From a virus: DNA of 61,822 nt. This document shows positions 2,863-3,609 of the stretch, piece after piece; the first letter of the stretch is position 1, and the number at the start of each line of letters is the position of its first letter. The notes under the pieces were generated by a model that saw nothing but the letters and a program-made list of their open reading frames with translations, ran no database searches and was not told the DNA's origin. The DNA lies in the IMG/VR virus record IMGVR_UViG_3300046373_000181, positions 1 through 61,822 of that record; one strand, given 5' to 3'. Both the position numbers and the translations under genes were made by a program.

Positions 2863-3609
2863 ATGAGCGAATTAACGATGGGTTCTCTCTTCGCCGGAAC
2901 GGGGGGATTCGAGTTGGCAGCCGAACGAAACGGCATCAAACCCCTTTGGAATTGTGAGATAGACGAACTGAAGCGACAGAAATTAAAAAAGAACTTTCCT
3001 GATGTACAACAATACGCCGACATCCGAGATTTGCACTACCCCCAACATGTTGATATCCTCACCGGGGGATTCCCCTGTCAGGACATTAGTTCAGCCGCCG
3101 GTCACCGAGCCACAGGAATTAACGGCCAAAGGTCGGGGCTATGGAAGCACTACGCCCGTTTACTGGGGGAAGTTAGACCTTCAGTCATCGTCTTTGAAAA
3201 CAGCCCAAGAATCGTTGTTTCCGGACTCGAGCAAGTCTTATGCGATCTTGCCCGACACGGGTATGATGCTGAATGGCGCCCTTTTTATGCTGCCCAATTC
3301 GGATACAATCACTATCGAAAACGAACATACGGCGTTGCCTTCGCCCGGAGCTCAGGATGGGAGAGTTGTCTTAAAAAAGGTGGAATCCTTGAAAAAGTAT
3401 TATCAGGCAAAAATCTCCCACCAAAATCACCTCCTGAAGCAGTGCCAACTAAACGGTATGACCGCCATTCAGACTATGAATCTGTACGAATGGATGATGG
3501 GTTTTCCAAAGAACTGGACAAGTTTAGAATCCACGATTGTGGAAACGCTGTAGTTGTCGACATTCCACAAGCCATCTTTTATCAACTCAAACTTCACTGG
3601 CCAATCTAG
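2863..3609 (+). CDS. DNA (cytosine-5) methyltransferase 2
   Basis: A 248-residue C5 cytosine methylase, a distant paralogue of the one at 941. Motif I reads GSLFAGTGGF (7-16), the catalytic Cys is C72 in GGFPCQ, motif VI is ENS (112-114) instead of ENV, motif VIII is YRKRTYGVA (about 151-159), and motif X is GNAVV followed by VDI where PQI is usual (from 227). The ENS and VDI departures are worth noting but do not remove the catalytic Cys or Glu. Like its paralogue it carries a long +1 overlapping frame. Confidence 0.9.
   Translation: MSELTMGSLFAGTGGFELAAERNGIKPLWNCEIDELKRQKLKKNFPDVQQYADIRDLHYPQHVDILTGGFPCQDISSAAGHRATGINGQRSGLWKHYARLLGEVRPSVIVFENSPRIVVSGLEQVLCDLARHGYDAEWRPFYAAQFGYNHYRKRTYGVAFARSSGWESCLKKGGILEKVLSGKNLPPKSPPEAVPTKRYDRHSDYESVRMDDGFSKELDKFRIHDCGNAVVVDIPQAIFYQLKLHWPI
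3002..3553 (+). CDS. overlapping +1-frame ORF inside methyltransferase 2
   Basis: A 183-codon frame, one base ahead of the methylase frame, the same relation as at 1023-1634. It contains, in order, SSLKTAQESLF, PDTGMMLNGALF, ALPSPGAQDG and EWMMGFPKNWTSLE. I recall this order of words (S.W.TSQ.SL, P.SGMM.NG, LPTP.A.D, EW.MGFP..WT) from many phage entries. The +1 stop (TAG 3551-3553) falls in the same motif X codons as in the paralogue. Whether it is translated is unknown. Confidence 0.4.
   Translation: MYNNTPTSEICTTPNMLISSPGDSPVRTLVQPPVTEPQELTAKGRGYGSTTPVYWGKLDLQSSSLKTAQESLFPDSSKSYAILPDTGMMLNGALFMLPNSDTITIENEHTALPSPGAQDGRVVLKKVESLKKYYQAKISHQNHLLKQCQLNGMTAIQTMNLYEWMMGFPKNWTSLESTIVETL

Follow-up and report, generated by a model that had tools for sequence, protein, structure and literature searches.

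A conserved gene nested in the +1 frame of phage C5-cytosine methylase genes probably encodes a motif IX chain of the same enzyme

Two C5 methylases of 252 aa (941-1699) and 248 aa (2863-3609), encoded by one virus, each carry a long open reading frame (ORF) in the +1 frame, and the comparisons presented here show that this frame is a coding gene under purifying selection, conserved among very distant phages. Both genes lie in the 61,822-nucleotide stretch of IMG/VR record IMGVR_UViG_3300046373_000181 that was analysed as a whole (the window). We give a probability of roughly three in four to the reading that each locus is a dual-coding gene, in which the frame-0 chain (alpha) and a nested chain (beta) would complete the same C5 methylase.

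The alpha 2 gene (2863-3609, + strand) matched PF00145 (E=2e-34) and phrog_363 (E=8e-53). As the initial annotation had stated, it contains a nested ORF of 183 aa, beta 2 (3002-3553, + strand), which runs from the ATG at 3002 to the TAG at 3551-3553. The paralogous alpha 1 (941-1699, + strand; PF00145, E=1e-36; phrog_363, E=2e-58) contains beta 1 (1083-1634, + strand), also of 183 aa when read from ATG 1083, with the longest ORF starting at TTG 1023. The same +1 shift and the same stop position inside motif X, also claimed by that annotation, were found at both loci, where a TAG (1632-1634 and 3551-3553) lies within the frame-0 sequence GNAVV. The complete motif X reads GNAVVP in alpha 1 (1622-1639, + strand) and GNAVVV in alpha 2 (3541-3558, + strand). 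Between both methylases lies a 269-aa ORF (1888-2697), PAPS-reductase/ATP-pyrophosphatase-like, with a SGGINSMAV motif.

The +1 proteins belong to a recognizable family. The phage family PHROG_1008, whose label is 'DNA methyltransferase', matched both beta 2 (E=6e-10) and beta 1 (E=1.6e-11), as well as 94 of 95 relatives of the +1 protein; searches of the +1 proteins against Pfam and NCBIfam gave nothing convincing. Using tblastn, matches were obtained in phages of Paenibacillus, Porphyromonas, Bacteroides, Mycobacterium, Stenotrophomonas, Microcystis and Lacticaseibacillus, the beta 2 protein being 55% identical to a gut phage contig, and in the records inspected these matches sat in the +1 frame of a methylase. 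When a +1 profile was searched against 595 genomes in two phyla, 28 genomes gave matches; each match overlapped a methylase, and for 66 of the 70 the relative frame was +1. The consensus of the family is SWKTSQ...SxTWPRSGMMRNGxxYxL...LLPTPxAxD...GxLNPxxVEWLMGFPxGWTxL. PHROG_1008 and the ORF annotated as 'g55 internal gene' in the record of Paenibacillus phage Shelly are this +1 family itself, and the nested gene accounts for the identity of PHROG_1008. The Shelly record marks the ORF as internal, other inspected records mostly annotate one frame, and the label 'methyltransferase' of PHROG_1008 comes without mention of a frame overlap, the records seen giving no evidence on function or selection. 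A literature search, with most subscription journals outside its scope, returned no paper describing a general overlap.

The distribution of C5 motifs between the two frames points to what the +1 protein could do. The frame-0 chains of both loci contain motifs I, IV (PCQ), VI (ENV/ENS), VIII (RxR) and X (GNA), and the frame-0 motif scan of alpha 2 found I-VIII and X. In both window methylases the scan showed no in-frame motif IX; an IX-like block (LNPxFVEWLMGFPxGW) is found in the +1 frame instead. This block reads HPRFYERLMGFPVGYLP in beta 1 (1542-1592, + strand) and EWMMGFPKNWTS in beta 2 (3488-3523, + strand), where its spacing matches the canonical LTPxExxRLQGFP; the spacing is also that of canonical motif IX in relatives such as L142 (VRRLTPLECERLQGFPDGWT). 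In a set of 181 genes, the block was present in the +1 frame of 152, and a genuine in-frame motif IX was found in five, all lacking IX in +1 (hits checked manually). No gene carried motif IX in both frames; it lay either in frame 0 or in +1. Frame-0 motif X follows the +1 MGFP at a median distance of 13 codons, and the frame-0 region between motifs VIII and X is open and poorly conserved, the conserved LPTPxAxDG region being in +1. In three bacterial genes (L141, from an alphaproteobacterial MAG, and L209 and L211, actinobacterial), the same or a related block lies in frame 0 and the +1 ORFs are truncated and lack it, a frame switch having moved this kind of block into frame 0. A comparison of the +1 profile with the motif IX region of a plant DRM methylase gave only a weak match (E=1).

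A comparable layout is known from M.EcoHK31I. Its small subunit reportedly has 176 aa and is nested, in a different frame, within the gene of the large one. In this enzyme (Lee, Kam and Shaw 1995; PMC3404938) the large subunit holds motifs I-VIII and X and the small polypeptide holds motif IX, the same two-polypeptide arrangement as is proposed for the window loci, which were matched to it by motif layout. Unlike the window-type genes, which belong to phages and prophages and next to which we noticed no restriction gene, M.EcoHK31I is bacterial and is partnered by a restriction enzyme (YGGCCR); in addition, its predicted TRD is in the large subunit, whereas the window-type genes carry the conserved LPTPxAxDG region ahead of motif IX in the small chain. 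M.AquI is likewise a C5 methylase split into two chains (PMC3404938), but its small subunit comprises motifs IX and X, the distal part of the enzyme, and the window beta is a nested frame lying over motifs IV-X. The ShiLan domain, an out-of-frame HNH endonuclease within a mycobacteriophage methylase (PMC11855218), also places an additional protein in a phage methylase gene, in a frame other than that of the methylase; that domain is a mobile insertion, whereas the overlap in the window spans the conserved core of the methylase without an insert.

With motif IX in +1 and motifs I-VIII and X in frame 0, a division of motifs that matches M.EcoHK31I, the best explanation is that the two frames encode the alpha and beta chains of one methylase. 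Frame 0 encodes a catalytic C5-cytosine DNA methyltransferase chain (motifs I-VIII and X), and a start codon about 22 codons upstream of motif IV would give a +1 chain of about 183 residues, made of a conserved N-terminal block, the LPTPxAxDG block and the motif IX-like block. Both chains could be translated from a single mRNA through internal initiation. By analogy with M.EcoHK31I, the product of the +1 ORF would most likely serve in trans as a beta subunit that binds alpha and completes the small, DNA-contacting domain; the resulting enzyme would methylate the DNA of the phage, probably as a protection from host restriction. The role of beta may extend beyond providing motif IX, because monomeric methylases have nothing that corresponds to its N-terminal half.

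That same N-terminal half, conserved but without a methylase homologue among Pfam or NCBIfam families, also fits an alternative that we regard as unlikely, namely that the +1 ORF encodes a real protein with an independent job (anti-restriction, a regulator or a DNA-binding partner), its nesting being an accident kept by dual constraint. In line with this alternative, L209 and L141 retain the N-terminal half even though motif IX has shifted to frame 0, and +1 ORFs of a second type are found in methylases that have their own motif IX. This second family (FLSPKACAGILRRA; phage P1 dmt has an example) also counts against the subunit reading: it sits in methylases with an in-frame IX and shows that a +1 overlap need not imply a motif IX subunit. 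However, an independent job is hard to reconcile with the overlap of the +1 ORF with a methylase in every case among the 595 genomes, with the presence in the +1 chain of a motif IX of canonical spacing (the L-[NT]-P-x9-MGFP region) directly upstream of motif X, and with the absence of motif IX from frame 0 exactly in the genes that have this +1 ORF.

In the alpha/beta reading, the +1 chain would have its own translation start. An SD-like site followed by a start codon was found near motif IV in the +1 frame of 48 of 115 genes (25 expected), and the +2 control gave 26 (34 expected). The excess was mainly 16-25 codons upstream of motif IV, and the window ATGs (1083 and 3002), at -21/-22 codons from this motif, fall within the enriched zone (-25 to -16). 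No clear SD was seen at either of these two ATGs; the nearest relatives of the phage suggest a Bacteroidota host, and a Bacteroidota host would not need one. In several AT-rich relatives, an ATG lies 16-20 codons past motif IV, right at the start of the open frame. These data bear on programmed +1 ribosomal frameshifting, which would make the +1 chain a continuation of the methylase N-terminus. Frameshifting would agree with the lack of a single start codon common to all members and with a constraint that begins only about 30 codons past motif IV, but it is made very improbable by the enrichment of SD-preceded starts in the +1 frame and by L117, L022, L058, L091 and L014, in which the open frame starts zero or one codon upstream of an ATG; moreover, an unsystematic look revealed no conserved slippery site.

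The length of the +1 frame exceeded what the methylase protein would produce by chance. In shuffles that kept this protein, the longest +1 run of 2863-3609 (188 codons) compared with a mean of 81 (P=0.008), and the same codon shuffle for 941-1699 gave 204 codons against a mean of 70 (P=0.002). The analysis was extended to 167 relatives gathered by methylase-frame queries only, so that no selection for the +1 frame was introduced, with codon shuffles and the +2 frame serving as controls. The median +1 run was 217 codons, compared to a codon-shuffle mean of 104 and a +2 median of 52, and the +1 ORF was longer than synonymous shuffling predicts (P<=0.05) in 143 of the 167 genes. Both PTPx(A)xD and MGFP-like patterns were present in the +1 frame of 119 of the 167. 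Among genes with GC<=45%, 36 of 43 had a +1 run with P<=0.01. In contrast, the +2 frame reached P<=0.05 in just 3 of 180 genes.

Synonymous constraint was measured with our own scripts, built on simple patterns, as were the SD result and the motif scans. The initial annotation had proposed selection on the +1 frame from a 30-base comparison of the conserved LPTPxAxDG block, read as SLPTPCAQDG in beta 1 (1407-1436, + strand) with ALPSPGAQDG in beta 2 (3332-3361, + strand), and had also listed SSLKTAQESLF and PDTGMMLNGALF, both of which are found in the 3002-3553 ORF. Repeating its count, we obtained 3, 0 and 5 differences at +1 codon positions 1, 2 and 3, with the methylase wobble base unchanged throughout. 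The larger alignment that it called for gave no sign of wobble positions varying freely there. Overlap and flanks were compared within the same genes in 18 pairs of relatives, with one or a few pairs from each cluster: 16% of four-fold methylase sites had changed in the overlap (137/856), compared to 37% in flank codons (151/404; odds ratio 0.32, P=3e-16). Third-position changes made up 36% of the substitutions in the overlap and 59% in the flanks (P=9e-24). A set of 24 partly related pairs, some from a single Bacteroides cluster whose weight the 18-pair set reduces, gave 14% four-fold change in the overlap versus 38-40%. The constraint set in about 30 codons past motif IV, peaked 90-150 codons past it and was gone beyond the +1 stop (41% changed). 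For 2863-3609 itself, compared with 20 mutually non-independent relatives, four-fold change was 22% in the overlap (109/506) and 69% in the flanks (130/188). The four-fold sites of 941-1699 were saturated; because its relatives are too distant for this test, support for its +1 gene rests on protein conservation, with 29 of 51 residues identical to the Shelly internal gene in +1 and 14 when the same 51 codons are read in frame 0. In the overlap of the Bacteroides phage pair L247/L249, the +1 protein was 92% identical and the methylase 83%, and in the recognition region of mycobacteriophages Spikelee and SG4 several residues differed in frame 0 and few in +1.

The constraint test ruled out a passive similarity through frame-0 conservation, and a sequencing frameshift was ruled out by the recurrence of the layout in well over a hundred independent loci. 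High GC does extend alternative frames, and +1 length alone is non-significant in several GC-rich members, but we give almost no weight to the idea that methylase conservation and composition passively produced the long +1 frame, since its length is significant in AT-rich members, wobble changes are depleted only within the overlap, and +1 residues are better conserved than those of frame 0 in several close pairs. All in all, the proposal of a selected +1 frame is confirmed and extended, in that the +1 product bears motif IX, the layout is widespread and M.EcoHK31I offers a described parallel.

Long same-strand overlaps with both frames strongly selected are rare among well-documented cases; this one is common to methylases of phages and of bacteria from many phyla, and most of the examined records annotate just one frame. 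Should beta prove to be a subunit, inactivity would be expected of many phage 'orphan' methylases that are cloned from frame 0 in recoded or codon-optimised form, as recoding abolishes the beta frame. We tentatively put forward, at somewhat less than even odds, that many of the phage-type C5 methylases, a large share of them, are encoded as complementary pieces of the same enzyme in two frames of one stretch (IX in +1, and X usually 13 codons away in frame 0), and that single indels could move the IX and recognition blocks between frames, altering subunit composition and perhaps target specificity.

Several relatives depart from the common layout. L023 and L024 share a one-base shift by which the N-terminal part of the methylase runs on into the +1 (beta) frame, leaving the methylase C-terminus in another frame. 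In Mycobacterium phage Llama and near-identical records (L257, 501-1260), a one-base insertion disrupts both the methylase and the +1 ORF, giving two annotated 'DNA methyltransferase' fragments, and XFactor (L256) has a one-base deletion near motif X. The actinobacterial L211 gene (1125-2420) has several LPTPxAxD repeats in frame 0 and another copy, LPTPRAADG, in +1, so the repeat is present in both frames of one gene. E. coli matches from related-gene queries were prophage methylases with a different type of +1 ORF. A third type, ending in WLMGFPPEWxxCAPxATP, occurs in prophage methylases that have DUF4406 as a neighbour in E. coli, Enterobacter and Citrobacter (L262, L263, L265, L266, L267, L225 and L233). 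The second type, with a conserved YFLS(P/S)xACAGILRR block, was seen in 46 phage records; it lies in C5 methylases with an in-frame motif IX, including L212, L213, L269 and phage P1 dmt (L268, 1961-4225), where the +1 run is 163 codons long (shuffle P=0.013).
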